A stretch of 22,026 nt of DNA from a virus, in IMG/VR virus record IMGVR_UViG_3300023236_000686, positions 1-22,026 of that record; one strand, written 5' to 3'. Of the stretch, positions 4,827 to 20,128 are shown piece by piece (the stretch's first letter is position 1; each line of letters begins with the position of its first letter). The translations under genes were made by a program, and so were the position numbers. The notes beneath the pieces are model-generated. The model saw only the letters and a program-made list of their open reading frames with translations. It ran no database searches and was not told the DNA's origin.

Positions 4827-6482
4827 ATGGCAATTAATGGTAAAACAAAAAAAGTAGAATTCGGATCTCGTAGCAGAAACAAACTAATTCAGGGAGTAGA
4901 TATTCTAGCAAATGCTGTGAGAATAACTCTAGGACCCAAAGGTAGAAATGTTGTTCTACAAAGAACATGGGGTGCTCCAGCAATAACCAAAGATGGTGTC
5001 ACAGTAGCAAAAGAAATTTTATTAAAAGATGATCTAGCCAACATGGGTGCTCAGATGGTTAAGGAAGTTGCCAGCAGAACCAACGAAGAAGCAGGCGATG
5101 GCACAACCACTGCCACAGTGTTAGCTCAAGCAATTGTTAATGAAGGTATTAAGTATATCACTGCCGGAATGAACCCAATGGATTTAAAAAGAGGAATGGA
5201 CAAAGCCACTGATGCAGTGGTTGAACAACTCTCTAAAATATCAAAACAATGTAAAACACAAAACGAAATAGAACAAGTTGGAACTATATCTGCCAACTCA
5301 GACAAAGACATAGGATCTATGATTGCTGAGGCTATGGAAAAAGTTGGTAAAGAAGGTGTTATCACTGTTGAAAAAGGCAAGACCATGAAGAATGAACTGG
5401 AAGTTGTAGAAGGATTGCAATTTGATAGAGGCTATATGAGTCCGTACTTCATCAACGATCCAGCAAAACAACTTGTGGAACTGGAAGATGTCTACATTAT
5501 ATTAACAGGTAAGCACGTTAGAACTGTTCAAGAAATTGTTCCTCTATTAGAAGAACTTGCCAAAAAGAACAAACCGTTTTTATTTGTGTGCGAAGATGCT
5601 GAAGGAGAAGCACTAGCCACATTAGTGATGAACAATGCCAAAGGCACAATTAGATGTGCGGCAGTTCACTCTCCAGGGTATGGCAACAGCAGAAAAGCAA
5701 TGTTGCAAGATATGGCAACACTGACCGGCGGTGAAGTGATATCAGACGACACAGGATTAACTTTAGAAAAAGCCAAACTGGAAGACCTTGGACAAGCATC
5801 AAGAGTAGTTGTAGACAAAAACACAACCACAATCATAGGTGGCAAGGGATTTAAATCTAAAATAGACAGCAGAGTTGCAGAGCTCAAAAAACAGATTGAA
5901 ATGAGTGAGGGCGGCGATGACAAAAGAAAATTAGAAGAAAGATTAGCCAAACTTACAGGCGGCGTCGCAGTGATTAGAGTGGGTGCCGCAACCGAAGTTG
6001 AAGTGCAGGAGAAAAAAGACAGAATTGAAGATGCCTTAAATGCTACCAAAGCCGCAGTTGAAGATGGTATTGTGCCAGGAGGTGGAGTTGCTTTCTTAAG
6101 AGCCAAACAAAAGATTGAAAATCTGCAAGGAGACAACGAAGATCAAACAGCAGGCATACAGATTGTGTTGAAAGCAATTGAATCCCCTGTGAGACAGATT
6201 ATTGCCAACGCAGGCGGATCGCCAGATGTGATTATAAATGAAATACTGAAAGGTAAAGGTAACTTTGGTTATGATGCTGGAACAGGTAATTTTGGTGACA
6301 TGATTGAATTGGGTATTATCGATCCTACCAAAGTGACAAAAACAGCACTGATAAATGCTTCAAGTATTGCTGGATTATTAATCACAACAGGAGCATCAGT
6401 GTTTGATGAACCCGAGCCTGTTAAGAAAGATTGGGATCCTGTGGAAAATACTAACATGAAATCTGGGGATTTCTACGATTAG
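4827..6482 (+). CDS. groEL: Chaperonin GroEL (60 kDa), divergent apical domain and tail
   Basis: GroEL forms a double-ring ATP-driven folding chamber in the cytoplasm, capped by GroES. The 551-residue protein is full length. ATP-site motifs are intact: LGPKGRNV near residues 35-42, GDGTTTATV (Asp91 corresponds to E. coli Asp87), and the equatorial [11 protein letters not shown]; the family Asp in [15 protein letters not shown] is present. The apical domain departs from the usual sequence: [13 protein letters not shown] replaces the common APGFGDRRKAML, and the polypeptide/GroES-binding helix reads ALATLVMNN. The C-terminus ends KSGDFYD, without the Gly-Gly-Met repeat tail. No groES is adjacent, which is unusual because the two normally form an operon. 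A Shine-Dalgarno AAGGAG precedes the ATG and a heat-shock-like promoter lies upstream. Divergence could mean a viral or second-copy GroEL. Confidence 0.97.
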
Positions 6483-6495
6483 TTTACCAAAAACT

Positions 6496-6523
6496 CTTGA
6501 CATTTGACAAAGAGTGCTTATAT
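6496..6523 (+). promoter_or_regulatory. Heat-shock-like (sigma32-type) promoter of dnaK
   Basis: CTTGAC at 6496-6501, 15-base spacer, CTTATAT at 6517-6523, the same boxes and spacing as in front of groEL. A second TTGACA (6505-6510) lies inside the spacer. There is no terminator hairpin between groEL and this promoter, so read-through from groEL is possible. Confidence 0.62.
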
Positions 6524-6566
6524 ATAATTTACATAATAAAAAACTCGCTTAACAAGGAGAATTAAA

Positions 6567-8471
6567 ATGAGTAAAATAATAGGAATAGACTTGGGTACAA
6601 CAAACTCTTGTGTTGCTTTAATGGAAGGCAAGGACGCAAAAGTTATTGAAAATACAGAAGGAGCAAGAACCACTCCAAGTGTGGTAGCATTCACAGACTC
6701 CGAAACATTGGTTGGTATGCCTGCAAAAAGACAAGCAGTGTCCAATTCAAGCAACACAATATTTGCGGCAAAACGTTTGATTGGTAGAACATTCGAAGGA
6801 GATGCTGTGCAAAAAGATATCAAAACACTTCCTTACGAAATTGTGAAAGCAGACAACGGTGATGCTTGGGTGAAAGCCAATGGCAAAAACTATGCACCAT
6901 CAGAGATTTCTGCATCAGTGCTTCGTAAGATGAAAGAGACAGCAGAGAAATATCTAGGCGAAGAAGTAACCAAGGCAGTGATCACTGTGCCTGCATATTT
7001 CAATGACAGTCAACGTAAGGCTACCAAAGACGCTGGTAAGATTGCCGGACTGGAAGTGGAAAGAATTATTAATGAACCAACTGCGGCGGCGTTGGCATAT
7101 GGTCTGGACAAGAAAAAGTCAGGCACGATTGCTGTGTACGATCTAGGTGGAGGTACATTTGATGTTTCTATATTAGAACTGGGTGACGGAGTGTTTGAAG
7201 TTAAATCCACAAACGGTGACACAACACTGGGTGGTGAAGACTTTGATGCCACAATCACAAATTACATCATCAGTGAATTTAAAAAAGATCAAGGTATAGA
7301 CTTGGGCAACGACAAGTTGGCTGTACAACGTGTGAGAGAGGCGGCTGAGAAAGCCAAAATAGAATTGTCAAGCACAACTCAAACAGATATCAATCTACCT
7401 TTTATCACAGCAGATAAAACAGGACCCAAACACATCAACATAAAGATGACCAGAGCAACATTGGAAAGTTTGGTTGGTGATCTTATAGCACGAACACTTT
7501 CTCCTTGCAAACAGGCATTAAAAGATGCCGGACTGTCGACCAAGGACATCAGCGAAGTGGTGTTGGTTGGTGGTATGACCAGAATGCCCAAAGTGTTCGA
7601 CACAGTCAAAGAGTTTTTTGGTAAAGAACCTCACAAAGGAGTTAATCCAGATGAAGTGGTGGCATTGGGTGCCGCTATACAAGGTGGTGTACTGCAAGGT
7701 GATGTTAAAGATGTATTGTTGTTAGATGTTACACCTTTATCACTGGGTATTGAAACATTGGGCGGAGTCACAACCAAAGTAATAGAAAAGAACACAACTA
7801 TTCCCACAAAGAAAAGTCAAGTGTTCTCCACAGCAGAAGACAATCAAGCGGCAGTGACTATCAGAGTTACACAGGGTGAAAGAGATATGGCAGTGGACAA
7901 CAAATTGCTGGGTAACTTTAACCTTGAAGGTATTGCACCTGCTCCAAGAGGTTTACCACAGATCGAAGTTACATTTGATATAGATGCAAACGGTATCTTG
8001 AGTGTGAGTGCCAAAGACAAAGGCACTGGCAAAGAACAGAAGATCACTATTCAAGCATCGGGTGGATTGTCAGATGAAGACATTGACAAGATGGTCAAAG
8101 ATGCAGAAGCCAACAAAGAAGAAGACAAGAAGAAAAGAGAGTTGGTAGAAACAAAGAACCAATCTGAAACACTGACACATCAAATCGACAAGCAACTCAA
8201 AGAGCATGGCGACAAGATATCTGAAGAGGAAAAGAAAGCAATTGAAGATGCCAAAGCAACTTTAATCGACGCATCCAAAACAGATGATGTGAGTAAGATT
8301 CAAGAAGCAATCAAAACACTCACAGAAGCCAGTATGAAGTTGGGCGAAGCAGTGTACAAACAAGCACAAGAAGAACAAGCACAGTCGGAACAGCAAGGCG
8401 AAAGCACAGAAGAAAATATTGTGGATGCCGACTTTAAAGAAGTTGATCCCAAAGAAGAAGATAAGAAATAA
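6567..8471 (+). CDS. dnaK: Chaperone DnaK (Hsp70)
   Basis: DnaK is the ATP-dependent Hsp70 that binds exposed hydrophobic peptides, working with DnaJ and GrpE. At 634 residues it is full length. ATPase motifs are clear: phosphate 1 [13 protein letters not shown] at the N-terminus, the hinge/phosphate 2 block [29 protein letters not shown], and [11 protein letters not shown]. The linker [19 protein letters not shown] leads into the substrate-binding domain with [18 protein letters not shown] and [21 protein letters not shown], then a helical lid and an acidic tail ending EEDKK instead of the frequent EEVK-type end. The sequence is very close to alphaproteobacterial DnaK as I know it, for example [13 protein letters not shown] and [11 protein letters not shown]. 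Strong ribosome site AAGGAG. No dnaJ or grpE follows, contrary to the usual dnaKJ order. Confidence 0.98.
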
Positions 8472-9373: not shown

Positions 9374-9556
9374 ATGACCTTAATTAAAAAAATATATCAA
9401 GACTTTCAAAGAGCATCAGAGAACAAAGAATTCTATGATAGATGCCAAATAGTATACAAAGGTCCTTATGCCCAATCCAATGCAGTTTTAGAACACATGG
9501 AATTGGATTATCTACCAAAAAGTCTAAGAAATATAATAACCAAAATAATCTCTTGA
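9374..9556 (+). CDS. Small hypothetical protein
   Basis: A 60-residue helical protein (MTLIKKIYQDFQRASENKE...) with one Cys and several Tyr. TAAATA at 9362-9367 lies six bases upstream of the ATG; no Shine-Dalgarno. Its stop lies inside the -35 box of the next promoter. I see no family signature. Confidence 0.55.
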   Translation: MTLIKKIYQDFQRASENKEFYDRCQIVYKGPYAQSNAVLEHMELDYLPKSLRNIITKIIS

Positions 9557-9587
9557 CTTTGGTAGCAGTTGATATTATACTAGGAGT
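9553..9587 (+). promoter_or_regulatory. Sigma70-type promoter and RBS
   Basis: TTGACT at 9553-9558, 17-base spacer, TATACT at 9576-9581, then AGGAG (9583-9587) before the ATG at 9594. It should drive the two small membrane genes and, without a visible terminator, the leader RNA and oxygenase downstream. Confidence 0.72.
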
Positions 9588-9593
9588 AACACT

Positions 9594-9728
9594 ATGGTAA
9601 AAACACTTAAAATTCGCAAACCAAAAAACAGAATGGAACGAATTACTTGGAGTTGTTTAGGAGCCGTTATGATCACATTCTTTGTGGTAATCTTAACAAT
9701 TACAGGATTATCATGGTTGGCAGGCTAA
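9594..9728 (+). CDS. Small single-pass membrane protein
   Basis: A 44-residue protein: basic N-terminus (KTLKIRKPKNRMER) then one membrane segment (residues 20-42, with GAVMITFFVVILTITGLSWL). It has a good promoter and ribosome site. Its 3' end overlaps the next gene by 16 bases. Function unknown. Confidence 0.65.
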   Translation: MVKTLKIRKPKNRMERITWSCLGAVMITFFVVILTITGLSWLAG

Positions 9729-9874: not shown

Positions 9875-9878
9875 AGCG

Positions 9879-10048
9879 CCGACCTAGGCCTTATTTTATA
9901 TAATTCCTCATAGAGGGTCGGAAACTCCACTGAATGAAGGTGGCATTGGTAAAAAGCCCTAGTTTCTTAATAGGAGGGGTTAGAGTACGTGAGTCTTTAA
10001 CCCACTTAAGGCTTTTCCAAACCTTTTTCCAGTAAGTGTGTTTCCGAC
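9879..10048 (+). ncRNA. Candidate structured leader RNA or riboswitch
   Basis: No frame looks coding here, but the strand folds well. A perfect 9-bp closing helix pairs GTCGGAAAC (9917-9925) with GTTTCCGAC (10040-10048). Inside it are a small hairpin CCAC/GTGG (9927-9930 with 9940-9943), an 11-bp helix TTGG+AAAAGCC with GGCTTTT+CCAA (9946-9949 and 9952-9958 with 10010-10020, two-base bulge), and a 9-bp hairpin GGGTTAGAG/CTTTAACCC (9977-9985 with 9995-10003, one G-T pair). The 5' segment CCGACC (9879-9884) can pair with GGTCGG (9916-9921) and so compete with the closing helix: a two-state switch. It ends 17 bases before the oxygenase start, which has no visible Shine-Dalgarno. I could not match it to tmRNA, RNase P, SRP, 6S or the riboswitch classes I know. 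Confidence 0.6.
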
Positions 10049-10065
10049 TAATGATAAATTAACAT

Positions 10066-10674
10066 ATGATCGACACTTTCTACGGAACTTTTCCAAATCA
10101 AGGCTATGTGCAAGCCACACTGCAACCTGAAGAACTTGCACCTGTTCAATTAGAAATAGACAAAATTCAAAAAGACTTTGATTCAGCAACGATTAATGAT
10201 TTAGGTCATGCCAGCAATTTACAAAACGAATTCTTTCTACAAGATTGTGTTAAACATTTAGAAAATTTGATAGCACCATTGTGTCAAAAATATTGTGAAC
10301 ACTCTGCTTATGGAGACAAATCAAAAAATACCTACTCACTCAAAGACGCTTGGGTCAATTATCAATCCAAACACGAATATTTTGGAACACACACTCATAA
10401 TGGTGAGTTCAGTTTTGCCTTGTGGGTCAAGGTGCCTTACACCATGGAGCAAGAAAAAGCTCATGTGAATTACACAGGCAGAAACATTGAACGACTGCCT
10501 GCATTTAACTTTCATTACACAGATGCCATGGGCACAATTAGAAACCAAATATTGCCTGTGGATAAAACTTTTGAAGGTAAATTAGTATTGTTTCCTGGAA
10601 ACATGAATCATTCTGTTACACCTTTTTACACATCGGACAAACACAGAATCACAGTGTCAGGTAACATAGTTTAA
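10066..10674 (+). CDS. Putative 2OG-Fe(II) oxygenase
   Basis: A 202-residue protein. The C-terminal half has the pattern of the short 2-oxoglutarate/Fe(II) dioxygenases common in marine phages: DAWVNYQSKHEYFGTHTHNG (first His ligand region), a strand SFALWVKVPY, then GKLVLFPGNMNHSV (distal His) and HRITVSGNIV with the Arg that would bind 2-oxoglutarate. The N-terminal half is helical and less conserved. The enzyme should hydroxylate an unknown substrate using O2, 2-oxoglutarate and iron. It sits alone behind the structured leader RNA, away from the four-oxygenase cluster at 18359-20795, and most resembles the gene at 20121-20795 in its FPSNLNHSV-type motif. Confidence 0.75.
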   Translation: MIDTFYGTFPNQGYVQATLQPEELAPVQLEIDKIQKDFDSATINDLGHASNLQNEFFLQDCVKHLENLIAPLCQKYCEHSAYGDKSKNTYSLKDAWVNYQSKHEYFGTHTHNGEFSFALWVKVPYTMEQEKAHVNYTGRNIERLPAFNFHYTDAMGTIRNQILPVDKTFEGKLVLFPGNMNHSVTPFYTSDKHRITVSGNIV

Positions 10675-10697: not shown

Positions 10698-10730
10698 GCC
10701 CCTTTAGCTCATTTGGTAGAGCAACCGTCT
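10698..10730 (+). pseudogene. tRNA 5'-half remnant (Thr-like)
   Basis: GCCCCTTTAGCTCATTTGG and what follows reads as an acceptor 5' strand (10698-10704), a perfect D arm (GCTC...GAGC) and the start of an anticodon arm, closest to tRNA-Thr. After about 10730 the sequence departs: no anticodon helix closes, there is no TTCGA T-loop and no AAGGGGC acceptor partner in the next 150 bases. It lies between the oxygenase and the phage-type block, so it may mark a recombination or integration scar. Confidence 0.55.
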
Positions 10731-10837
10731 TGGCGAACCTGGGATCCGGCATGTTTGGTGGTGCTATCAGCAACTTGCCCTGTGTGTCGATCATACAAAT
10801 ACTTATTGTGATCTGGGCTGTGAATTGTGTGTATTGA

Positions 10838-16532: not shown

Positions 16533-17342
16533 ATGACAAGTTACACACCCGAACATTTTGCTCCAAAAAGATTGTACACATTTGGTTGCTCATTCACACA
16601 TTTCTTTTGGCCCACTTGGGCAGACATCTTGGGATCAACTTATGATCACTATGAGAACTGGGCATGTAGTGGATACGGCAATAGAGCCATTGTGGAACGA
16701 CTGAGTGAATGTGTTACTCACAACAACTTAACCAAAGACGATACCATTATTGTGCAGTTCACAGACTTTCATCGTCACGACATTCATCAACAAGGTATTG
16801 AACCAAACAACATTTCTAATTGGAGACTGGGTGGCAACATCTGGGTTAAAGAAATTGAAATGGAGTGGGTCAAAGACTTCTGGAGTGAGTCCAGTTATGT
16901 GTACCACACTTGCAACTTTATCACTATGGCACTTGCATTATTGAAATCGTTGCCTTGTAAATTTCACATCACCAGCATGGTTGATCTGCGTGATGACATT
17001 AAACAGTTCCACCCTGGCTACATGAAGATGTTCAATGACGAGATTAATTGGAAACAAGACTTCTTAGGTTTTTGTGCTCAAGAAAAATATCAAGGCATTG
17101 CTCACAAACAAAGAATATGGGATTCTACAATTAAAAAGTTAATAACCAAAACAACAGTTGACATGCACCCAACCTCTAAAATGCATCTCAAATGGTTGCA
17201 ACAAAATTTCAACTTCAATGAAACAAATGAGTTTATTGAAAAGATCAAACAGATGCCAGACGACATCATTGATGCAGGATCCAAAGAATTCAATGAAAAT
17301 TTAAATTGGCAGAACAATCAGTACAGGATAAAAGGCATATGA
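16533..17342 (+). CDS. SGNH/GDSL hydrolase-like protein
   Basis: A 269-residue protein with SGNH blocks: YTFGCSFTHFFW (block I, Gly-Cys-Ser-Phe instead of GDS; the Ser is the likely nucleophile), GYGNRAI (the Gly/Asn block III), and DMHPTSKMHLKWL (block V, Asp and His). Such proteins are esterases, lipases or acyl-transfer enzymes. The start at 16533 follows tRNA-Arg; a longer frame would begin inside the tRNA and is rejected. The ATGA overlap with hemE couples the two. The marine-phage version of this fold, without a proven substrate, is common in metagenomic viruses, from memory. It is followed by hemE and four oxygenases. Confidence 0.72.
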   Translation: MTSYTPEHFAPKRLYTFGCSFTHFFWPTWADILGSTYDHYENWACSGYGNRAIVERLSECVTHNNLTKDDTIIVQFTDFHRHDIHQQGIEPNNISNWRLGGNIWVKEIEMEWVKDFWSESSYVYHTCNFITMALALLKSLPCKFHITSMVDLRDDIKQFHPGYMKMFNDEINWKQDFLGFCAQEKYQGIAHKQRIWDSTIKKLITKTTVDMHPTSKMHLKWLQQNFNFNETNEFIEKIKQMPDDIIDAGSKEFNENLNWQNNQYRIKGI

Positions 17343-18349
17343 GAACACTTCTACAAAGAACTATCATAGACAAAGAACCCAATCTATATCCCATTTGGTT
17401 AATGCGTCAAGCAGGAAGATACATGCCTGAGTACATGGCAATTAAAAAAGCCAGCAAAGGATTTTTAGACATGGCACTGGATCCTGTCAAAGCCAGTGAC
17501 ATCACCATGCAACCCATCAATGCATTTGACATGGATGCCGCTATAATATTCTCTGACATATTGATAATACCTTACGCACTAGGACAAGGTTTAGATTACA
17601 CACCAGCACCTAAACTGGATCTGTTTGATCCTAAAATATTTGACACTGATTTAGAAACGTTTTTTAAGAAGTGTGAACCTGTGTATGAAGCCATAAGAAA
17701 AACCAGACAACAACTGGATCCCAGCAAGAGTCTTATAGGCTTTGTAGGAGCACCTTGGACACTGTATAGATATATGAAAGGCAACAACGATGTCGCCAGC
17801 ATGGATCCTTTCACATCGCGAGAGCATATTCAAAGTCTTGTTAAATTTTGTGTGGAACATCTCAGCAAACAGATCGAAGCAGGTTGCGATTGTGTGCAAG
17901 TGTTTGACTCATGGGCAGGCGATCTTGGAGAAGACTTTATTATTGATTATTGTTTTGATCCCACAGCACAAATTGTATCAGAAATAAAAACAAGACACCC
18001 AGATGTAGGTATCATTGGCTTTCCTAGACTGATAGGAAGAGAAGTCAAAAACTTTTCAGCATGGTGTGATCCTTATCTTGATTGTGTGAGTCTAAGTGGT
18101 GATGTGCCTGTAAAATTCTTGTACAAGCATCTAGGCACTGTGGCACTGCAAGGAGGTATAGATCCCGAAGCACTGCTTGGTTATGACAGAGAAGCCATAA
18201 TGAATGCCACCTTGCCCATACTGAGACAAATGCAAGACATGGCATATGTGGTGAACCTGTCGCATGGTGTGATCAAAGAAACACCCGTTGACAGTGTGGC
18301 ATTTTTGGTAGAAGTCATAAAACGTTTTAGAAAACAGTCAAGGAATTAA
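17339..18349 (+). CDS. hemE: Uroporphyrinogen decarboxylase (HemE)
   Basis: HemE removes four carboxyl groups from uroporphyrinogen III to give coproporphyrinogen III, an essential cytoplasmic step of haem synthesis. At 336 residues it is near the usual length. Signature 1 PIWLMRQAGRYMPEY (Arg23, Arg27 hold substrate) and the aspartate in AAIIFSDILIIP (Asp73, the catalytic centre) are intact, as are GFVGAPWTLYRYM, VQVFDSWAGDL and the C-terminal VNLSHGVIKETPVDSV with the active-site His. The usual NLGHG is NLSHG. No other hem gene is in the window. It begins on the stop of the SGNH gene (ATGA) and is followed nine bases later by the first oxygenase. A haem gene in this setting is unusual. Confidence 0.93.
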   Translation: MRTLLQRTIIDKEPNLYPIWLMRQAGRYMPEYMAIKKASKGFLDMALDPVKASDITMQPINAFDMDAAIIFSDILIIPYALGQGLDYTPAPKLDLFDPKIFDTDLETFFKKCEPVYEAIRKTRQQLDPSKSLIGFVGAPWTLYRYMKGNNDVASMDPFTSREHIQSLVKFCVEHLSKQIEAGCDCVQVFDSWAGDLGEDFIIDYCFDPTAQIVSEIKTRHPDVGIIGFPRLIGREVKNFSAWCDPYLDCVSLSGDVPVKFLYKHLGTVALQGGIDPEALLGYDREAIMNATLPILRQMQDMAYVVNLSHGVIKETPVDSVAFLVEVIKRFRKQSRN

Positions 18350-18358
18350 GTATAGTAT

Positions 18359-18907
18359 ATGAGAATAGAAAATTTATTAGGATCAAATCAATACGGTTAT
18401 GTGTTGAACAAATTGGACACTCCTGGAGTGGCTTGGTACCATGCTGAAACAACTGCCAATTACTTCGATAAAAAATTACCTTACAACAGCAGTTTCAGTC
18501 ATCTTATGTTTAAAAAAGATACAGGACCCATTAGTGAATTGTTTGAATGTGCATTTCCAATTCTATTGGCGGCGTTGGATCAACAACAAAAGACATTGAA
18601 AGAATTAATTAGAATCAGAATGGGATTGGTAACCAGAGCACCATACCAAGTGGTTCATGCTCCGCACAAAGATCACTCAGAACCTCATCACACAGGATTA
18701 TATTACCTGAACGAAACAGACGGCGACACTGTGGTTTACAATGAAACCGAAGAGTCAAAAGAATACACAATCAAAGAAAGATTAACACCCAAAGCAAACA
18801 CTTGGCATCAGTTTGATGGAGCTCATTATCATTCCAGTTCTGCTCCTACTCAACACGAGAAAAGAATTACATTAACTTTTAACTACACAACAATAGACGA
18901 CAAATGA
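18359..18907 (+). CDS. 2OG-Fe(II) oxygenase (cluster member 1)
   Basis: A 182-residue protein. The centre reads VVHAPHKDHSEPHHTGLYYLN: His103-x-Asp105 is the iron-binding pair. The C-terminal block TWHQFDGAHYHSSSAPTQHEKRITLTF gives a second His (His156 or His158) and Arg169 for 2-oxoglutarate. The N-terminal 80 residues are helical and not conserved. It is a small dioxygenase of the phage type; the substrate is unknown. It follows hemE by nine bases and its end overlaps the next oxygenase (ATGA), so translation is coupled. Confidence 0.82.
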   Translation: MRIENLLGSNQYGYVLNKLDTPGVAWYHAETTANYFDKKLPYNSSFSHLMFKKDTGPISELFECAFPILLAALDQQQKTLKELIRIRMGLVTRAPYQVVHAPHKDHSEPHHTGLYYLNETDGDTVVYNETEESKEYTIKERLTPKANTWHQFDGAHYHSSSAPTQHEKRITLTFNYTTIDDK

Positions 18908-19455
18908 AACCCATAGAGAAACCATATTTTTGGCAATATCCAGCAGGCACTATTCCAGACATATTGATAGAAGACACAATCAAGTTGGCAGACAGTAAAC
19001 AAAGAGAAGATGGCAAAGTGTTGGACGGCTCAATTGATAAAAATATTCGCAGTGTGGAACGAACTCCTTTAGATGAGTTTGATCCTATCGGAGTTTTCAT
19101 GTTCGGGTTGGCAGTCAAAGCCAATCAAGCATTGTTTAGATATGAATTAGGAGGCCCTTGTCAATTTGAAATGTTACACTACGACAAGCAAGGTGATCAC
19201 TATGACGGACATGTGGACACTGTGGAATACGACAACGGATTCAGTCGTAAACTCACAGTGATGGGATACCTTAATGATGATTACAAAGGTGGTGGATTTT
19301 ATTTTCAAACTGATCAAGGAACAAAACACACAGTTGAAGTTTCCAAAGGAACTGTGTTGGTGTTTCCGCCATTCATCATGCACGGAGTTGAACCTGTTGA
19401 AGAAGGTGCAAGACAAAGTGTGGTAGGTTGGGTTACAGGACCAACTTTTAAATAA
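18904..19455 (+). CDS. Prolyl-4-hydroxylase-type 2OG-Fe(II) oxygenase (cluster member 2)
   Basis: A 183-residue protein matching the P4Hc/PKHD-hydroxylase pattern. MLHYDKQGDHYDGHVDT carries the HxD pair (His103, Asp105), LTVMGYLNDDYKGGGFYF is the double-strand core, and GTVLVFPPFIMHGVEP carries the distal His160, with Arg170 ten residues later for 2-oxoglutarate. The family hydroxylates protein prolines or other substrates. It overlaps the previous gene by four bases and ends one base before the next start. It is the best defined of the four oxygenases. Confidence 0.9.
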   Translation: MKPIEKPYFWQYPAGTIPDILIEDTIKLADSKQREDGKVLDGSIDKNIRSVERTPLDEFDPIGVFMFGLAVKANQALFRYELGGPCQFEMLHYDKQGDHYDGHVDTVEYDNGFSRKLTVMGYLNDDYKGGGFYFQTDQGTKHTVEVSKGTVLVFPPFIMHGVEPVEEGARQSVVGWVTGPTFK

Positions 19456-19456
19456 G

Positions 19457-20128
19457 ATGCAAGACGATATACTTACAAATTTTGATAAAGACTCTTATGT
19501 GATTATCAGAGGACTGATTGATCCAGACTGGTGCAAGACTCTCTACGACTATTGTAGATACTCTGCTTCACGTTGTGAACTAAAACAACACAACGATGAA
19601 GAAAAATACAGAGAAGCATGGGACGGAACATTTCACGATAAACAATGTCCAGGAAACTATTCTCAATATGGAGATCCTTTGATGGACAGTATGTTGATGT
19701 CACATGGAAAGACATTTGAAGAAGCAACCGGAATGAAATTGGCTCCGTCATACACTTATTGGAGAATGTACACTCACGGTGCTGTGTTGCACAAACACAA
19801 AGACAGACCCAGTTGCGAAATCAGTGCCACAGTGTGTATAGATTGGGATGACTCCAACTGTGAAAAACATTGTACACCTTGGCCCATATGGTTAAAAGAC
19901 AAAAATGGCAAGACAACTGCAATAGAATTAAGACAAGGAGACGCCATGGTTTACAAAGGTTGTGAAGTCGAACATTGGAGAGAATCATATCACGGAGTGA
20001 CAGCGGCACAAGTGTTTTATCATTATACAGATGTAAAAGGTGAATTGTTCAATCCGTGGGACGGAAGACCTCATGGCGGAATACCACACGGATTCCAAAG
20101 ACCCAAACAGGAGAAAAAAGATGATTGA
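19457..20128 (+). CDS. 2OG-Fe(II) oxygenase (cluster member 3)
   Basis: A 223-residue protein beginning MQDDILTNFDKDSYVIIRGL, the phytanoyl-CoA-hydroxylase-like opening 'DGY.v..gl'. MYTHGAVLHKHKDRPSCEIS carries the HxD pair (His114, Asp116); GDAMVYKGCEVEHWRES carries the second His173 and Arg175. The chain has many Cys and a CEKHCTPWP turn. The C-terminus continues with a Pro/Gly-rich PHGGIPHGFQRP tail. Substrate unknown. It is sequence-distinct from its neighbours, so the four are not recent duplicates. Confidence 0.85.
   Translation: MQDDILTNFDKDSYVIIRGLIDPDWCKTLYDYCRYSASRCELKQHNDEEKYREAWDGTFHDKQCPGNYSQYGDPLMDSMLMSHGKTFEEATGMKLAPSYTYWRMYTHGAVLHKHKDRPSCEISATVCIDWDDSNCEKHCTPWPIWLKDKNGKTTAIELRQGDAMVYKGCEVEHWRESYHGVTAAQVFYHYTDVKGELFNPWDGRPHGGIPHGFQRPKQEKKDD

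Follow-up and report, generated by a model that had tools for sequence, protein, structure and literature searches.

We found that a 22,026-nt stretch of viral DNA, positions 1 to 22,026 of the IMG/VR record IMGVR_UViG_3300023236_000686 (hereafter the window), carries a real, undescribed structured RNA, which begins 3 nt past the stop codon of the preceding ORF and measures about 145–170 nt across the phage group that possesses it. On balance, we consider it probable that this phage element works as a non-coding RNA in its own right, made early, processed and acting in trans. An undescribed structured RNA had been proposed here in a preliminary description, and covariation among relatives, folding z-scores and the lack of an Rfam match all agree with that proposal. 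The 9-bp closing helix, the 9-bp hairpin and the bulged 11-bp helix that it listed were recovered at the same positions (Table 1). Comparison with shuffled sequences, which it had put forward as a check, also came out in favour of structure: positions 9879–10048 (+) fold at −51.6 kcal/mol versus −40.1 ± 3.7 kcal/mol for shuffles (z −3.07; 0/200 as good). The core alone (Pb to P1) reaches z −4.4 in the window, and five relatives range from −4.1 to −6.2. The GC content of the RNA amounts to 0.42–0.57, against 0.29–0.32 in the 500 nt upstream.

Relatives were sought by protein and by DNA pattern, and repeated IMG/VR scans returned the same seven other contigs, which belong to the same phage group as the window. 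Two of them (L002/L008 and L003/L010) carry a copy identical to the window's own sequence, and five (L004/L014, L007, L009/L006, L011/L005 and L013) contain distinct sequences. The local gene order DnaK-small ORFs-RNA is common to the relatives and the window, GroEL precedes DnaK wherever a contig was examined that far, and every contig with the neighbouring 79-aa gene also has the RNA. The largest contig (148 kb) encodes a T4-type DNA polymerase and clamp loader. Its nearest polymerases are found in Sinorhizobium phage Phosso (469 kb) and further jumbo phages, so the window probably derives from a large T4-like phage. The RNA is hosted by a group of marine T4-like, likely giant, bacterial viruses.

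The shared elements are hairpin Pa, an AU-rich spacer, hairpin Pb, closing helix P1, hairpins P2 and P3, and helix P4 capped by hairpin P5. In most copies P1, P2, P3 and P4 meet in a four-way junction, and the long hairpin P5 sits on P4. The window and L004/L014 constitute a divergent subtype, whose RNA is around 60% identical to the other copies; the dnaK gene of the window is 80–86% identical to that of the type-A relatives. Pa and Pb are almost unchanged, though the remainder of the RNA differs by about 40%. This subtype retains P1 and P5, with the long helix 9946–9958/10010–10020 (11 bp with a 2-nt bulge) in place of P3/P4; the helix uses a 25-nt insertion. Its predicted pairing probability is 0.99 in the window and 1.00 in L014, and the long-helix fold is 11–17 kcal/mol better than the four-way junction in the subtype; for the window copy, the type-A internal fold reaches −40.0 kcal/mol versus a predicted minimum of −50.8 kcal/mol. 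The fold given in the preliminary description is hence the predicted minimum of the window copy, but not the fold of the family, as the internal helix is restricted to the window subtype.

A covariance model (R1) was built from six copies, the window copy included, and scores 120–171 bits on these building copies (120.4 bits for the window). Searches with it detected one RNA per record, the sole additional match being marginal and on the opposite strand of L004's copy. We observed two-sided changes with pairing kept at nine pairs, mostly in P1 (three) and P5 (five), versus 1–3 pairs in controls with slid partners. Pairing is retained in 91% of the alignment cells, and the covariation score was reached by 0/500 shuffles. 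The covariation expected in homologous loci is therefore present, although it comes from few independent lineages: the six distinct copies represent about three, and as the two-sided changes fall mostly on the single branch separating the two subtypes, they correspond to few evolutionary events. Several pairing columns hold G-U on the + strand, and in every copy the + strand is lower in energy than the − strand, although only slightly in the window; both features indicate that the RNA has the same orientation as its neighbours. Among the four type-A copies, 8/14 columns of the linker are variable, compared with 0/39 in Pb, P2 and the 5′ strand of P4. Between L007 and L013 the RNA is 93.8% identical, dnaK 84.4% and the 600 nt upstream 66.6%. 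As the RNA outdoes both dnaK and the upstream region and its changes fall in the linker, not in Pb, P2 or the P4 5′ strand, selection seems to act on the RNA itself. At the level of comparison between genomes, RNA structure, strand and selection can be regarded as shown.

Table 1. Coordinates of the RNA element, its parts and its neighbours in the window
Feature	Position	Strand	Evidence or remark
Sigma-70-type promoter TTGACT-N17-TATACT	9553..9581	+	Head of the short operon carrying the RNA
Small ORF of 44 aa, opening the short operon	9594..9728	+	Syntenic homologue in L007
Small membrane-protein-like ORF, 53 aa	9713..9874	+	Stop codon 3 nt before the RNA
CUAGGUC, candidate 5′ arm of helix P0	9849..9855	+	Pairs with GACCUAG 9881–9887; alternative to Pa
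Structured non-coding RNA, copy of the divergent subtype	9878..10048	+	Covariance model R1, two-sided pair changes, fold z-scores
Pa, GCC-GAMCUA-GGC(C)	9878..9890	+	12/13 positions invariant in all copies
Pb hairpin, CCUC-AUA-GAGG	9906..9916	+	Fully invariant
P1 closing helix, 5′ strand GTCGGAAAC	9917..9925	+	Pairs with 10040–10048; three compensatory pairs
Subtype-specific internal helix, 5′ strand TTGGTAAAAAGCC	9946..9958	+	Partner 10010–10020
P5 hairpin, GGGTTAGAG 9977–9985 with 9995–10003	9977..10003	+	Five compensatory pairs among relatives
Subtype-specific internal helix, 3′ strand GGCTTTTCCAA	10010..10020	+	Partner 9946–9958
P1 closing helix, 3′ strand GTTTCCGAC	10040..10048	+	Perfect 9 bp with 9917–9925
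Late-promoter-like motif GATAAATT	10053..10060	+	5 nt before the oxygenase ATG
2OG-Fe(II) oxygenase (PF13759, phrog_81)	10066..10674	+	Adjacent to the RNA but outside it
tRNA-Thr 5′ half, broken in the anticodon arm	10698..10732	+	Intact in L004–L007 and L013

No known class of RNA was recognized in the searches. Against Rfam 15 at gathering thresholds, the RNA element of the window had no match, and only tRNAs reached these thresholds in the Rfam tests; at relaxed thresholds (E ≤ 5) the window returned only snoRNA/miRNA noise, and the best-conserved relative likewise gave noise only. The Rfam comparison suggested in the preliminary description thus yielded no class at either setting. The GOLLD and ROOL covariance models did not match the RNA, blastn of the region or of L013's copy gave no match among phages and plasmids, and a literature search retrieved no description of this phage RNA. 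Covariance-model searches with stricter filters found no match in the whole genomes of Sinorhizobium phage Phosso, Vibrio phage 2.275.O, 121Q, XbC2, GAP32, HTVC008M and two cyanophages. The only match of a pattern scan of bacterial and archaeal genomes (L020) fails the covariance model, and five further pattern matches (L012, L015, L017, L018 and L019) were discarded as chance ones by the same check. Two weak model matches among 289 alphaproteobacterial genomes, L068, which is antisense to an apparent 3-dehydroquinate synthase gene (aroB), and L069, were taken as chance.

The genetic context of the RNA is characterized by two types of promoter. A TTGACTTT(T)GGT-TATAAT promoter (10–11 of 12 positions) is present upstream in all six distinct copies, 319–495 nt from the RNA, and the last upstream ORF ends 1–3 nt before the RNA in every relative. 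Judged from this arrangement, the sigma-70 promoter would drive the RNA. In turn, the space between the RNA and the oxygenase ATG holds GATAAATT, or GATATATA in L011 and L013; L007, which is devoid of the oxygenase, has no late-promoter-like motif at the corresponding place. Motifs of the T4 late type (GATAAATA) occur 18 times on the main coding strand of the 148-kb contig (G006) versus once on the other, and TAAATA is enriched 20-fold in the 30 nt before its ORFs, with several sites located exactly 5 nt before the ATG. With the geometry of T4 late promoters, which we take to hold here, the 5′ end of the oxygenase mRNA would fall at the ATG or right beside it. The missing Shine-Dalgarno sequence, noted in the preliminary description and read there as part of the layout of a riboswitch or other cis-regulator, is better explained by such a near-leaderless late mRNA. 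The 2OG oxygenase hence appears to be a separate gene placed in the gap between the RNA and the tRNA, with a late promoter of its own. A tRNA-Thr gene lies 3′ of the RNA in all relatives and is intact in 5/6 distinct copies. In the window, L002 and L003 it is cut at the same junction.

The location of the RNA about 17–20 nt upstream of the oxygenase ATG in five distinct copies is what one would expect of a riboswitch or other cis-regulator in the 5′ leader of that gene, with fold switching controlling access to the start codon, as had been suggested at first. Moreover, the window and L014 share the RNA (95.8% identity) and the oxygenase (97.0%) while the 600 nt upstream are only 74% identical, as if the two had moved together. 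Yet L007 retains the RNA at high identity without the oxygenase and runs directly from it into tRNA-Thr, so the conserved association with a regulated gene that marks riboswitches is lacking, and L011 and L009 have RNAs that are 97.9% alike but oxygenase regions only 76% alike. The late-promoter-like motif between the RNA and the ATG also speaks against such control. As for the switch, CCGACC is indeed located at 9879–9884, but its pairing with GGTCGG, through which it was thought to steal half of the closing helix, has a predicted probability of 3e-9 versus 0.9999 for the closing helix. Nor is mutually exclusive pairing conserved: L007, L013, L011 and L009 keep CCGA(C/A)C while their closing helix is altered, so that at most 3 bp could compete there. 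No terminator-like site was seen at the RNA, and neither conserved exclusive folds nor an expression platform, as expected of a riboswitch, were detected. A different helix, P0 (7 bp; 4/6 copies), may tentatively be considered as an alternative to Pa; its modelled probability is about 1.0 in the window, 0.53 in L014, 0.72 in L007 and 0.24 in L013, and it is absent in L011/L009. Because the RNA is kept where the oxygenase is absent, it more likely has its own job than switches this gene, and we regard the riboswitch explanation as improbable.

Since the early promoter also serves coding genes, a 3′-UTR or cis role within the operon is conceivable: the nascent RNA could bind RNA polymerase or a factor for read-through, in the manner of HK022 put, or cap and stabilize the 3′ end of the mRNA. 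HK022 put consists of short two-stem sites close to the early promoters of lambdoid phages, and, like put RNA, the present RNA belongs to an early operon of a phage and is independent of the downstream gene content. It follows the stop codon by 1–3 nt in a short operon with a conserved sigma-70 promoter and stays constant where the downstream content varies (oxygenase or tRNA). However, in contrast to put, it is single, multibranch, situated 320–500 nt from the promoter and far larger; it occurs once in the 148-kb contig, where a general antitermination signal should have recurred in further operons, and no terminator-like site beyond chance was noted downstream of it. Such a cis element is therefore unlikely, if less so than an oxygenase switch. 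The compact closed multibranch fold with its invariant segments, and the direct adjacency to tRNA-Thr in L007, would suit a small ribozyme or an RNA that guides processing of the neighbouring tRNA-Thr. Still, we see very little chance for such a role, as no catalytic RNA family matched in Rfam, the RNA persists in the window phage although its tRNA-Thr is halved, and in most copies the oxygenase lies between the two. Neither the oxygenase nor tRNA-Thr is an obligatory neighbour of the RNA. Hardly credible, finally, is that the hairpins are incidental to a site acting as DNA, such as a replication origin or a recombination or protein-binding site: both strands fold well and identity jumps at the element borders suggest exchange there, but the G-U pairs of the + strand are A-C mismatches on the other one, and the + strand is the more stable in every copy, be it by little in the window.

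Some further readings were considered. Pairing of the Pa loop with the variable region of tRNA-Thr was dropped as it showed no covariation, and a T-box, raised by the tRNA neighbour, had no Rfam match. For retron, Y-RNA and guide-RNA readings, no reverse transcriptase, TROVE or TnpB-type partner was found in the eight contigs, all of them probably incomplete genomes.

The reading that we favour is thus a non-coding RNA with its own function. Transcription would proceed from the early sigma-70 promoter through very small ORFs into the RNA and on towards tRNA-Thr, and the RNA would probably be released by processing, with RNase P acting at the tRNA and an endonuclease in the AU-rich flanks. The product would comprise the two invariant 5′ hairpins, Pa and Pb, with the AU-rich spacer, followed by the domain closed by P1. 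A protein or RNA partner would likely bind at Pa and Pb, and it is probably through them that the RNA acts in trans. Transcription, processing, trans action and the partner are features that we infer for this RNA. More specifically, and with less than even confidence, we propose a new family of trans-acting RNAs of large marine T4-like phages, which would be produced early in infection, combine two invariant recognition hairpins with an exchangeable structural domain and bind a host or phage machine; this machine may be the ribosome, RNA polymerase, a nuclease or a defence protein.

To our knowledge, lytic phages have yielded few non-coding RNAs so far, and large environmental phages hardly any. 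The small stable RNAs C and D of T4 (species 1 and 2), of unknown function, are encoded beside the T4 tRNA genes and resemble the present RNA in setting (T4-type phage, tRNA-adjacent), a likeness by context alone. Similar in their phage setting and tRNA neighbourhood are GOLLD and ROOL, structured phage and prophage RNAs of unknown function that are often found near tRNA islands, one GOLLD example from a marine metagenome being located downstream of tRNA-Met (PMC12286853). Yet GOLLD and ROOL are ornate and far larger (many GOLLD exceed 800 nt), whereas the present RNA is compact and unmatched by their models. Like the riboswitches and regulatory leaders of Rfam, it is a multibranch RNA just upstream of a gene, but it has no Rfam match or conserved alternative fold, and the following gene is dispensable, with a promoter-like motif of its own. 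By its setting the RNA thus seems closest to GOLLD, ROOL and T4 RNAs C and D, while it is a member of none of the classes tested (Rfam, GOLLD/ROOL). Being compact, strongly constrained and present in single copy, with one part invariant and another changeable, the RNA is a concrete candidate for one that acts on host or phage machinery. It also illustrates that a riboswitch-like position can mislead if the gene that follows is dispensable and served by a promoter of its own.

Several other features of these phages were recorded. In the window (9878–10674) and L014, the RNA and the oxygenase appear, by the identity jump, to have undergone exchange as a cassette with its border at the RNA. The 148-kb relative, IMGVR_UViG_3300030376_006203, is a T4-like phage contig that possesses a circularly permuted tmRNA gene of alphaproteobacterial type (L046:3211–3562, −; Rfam alpha_tmRNA 92 bits against a gathering threshold of 50; ARAGORN tag ADAELVAA), hinting at an alphaproteobacterial host. 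GroEL and DnaK adjoin in the phage, and the relative encodes DnaJ and an ATP-dependent protease at other places, which makes an unusually full chaperone set (window 4827–8471; L043:3778–4626). A cytochrome-b-like ORF, recognized by eye from its translation, lies beside tRNA genes near the RNA locus in a viral-classed contig (L006:9041–10309, −), and the window itself carries uroporphyrinogen decarboxylase and ferrochelatase-like genes at 17306–20128, i.e., haem biosynthesis in a phage.
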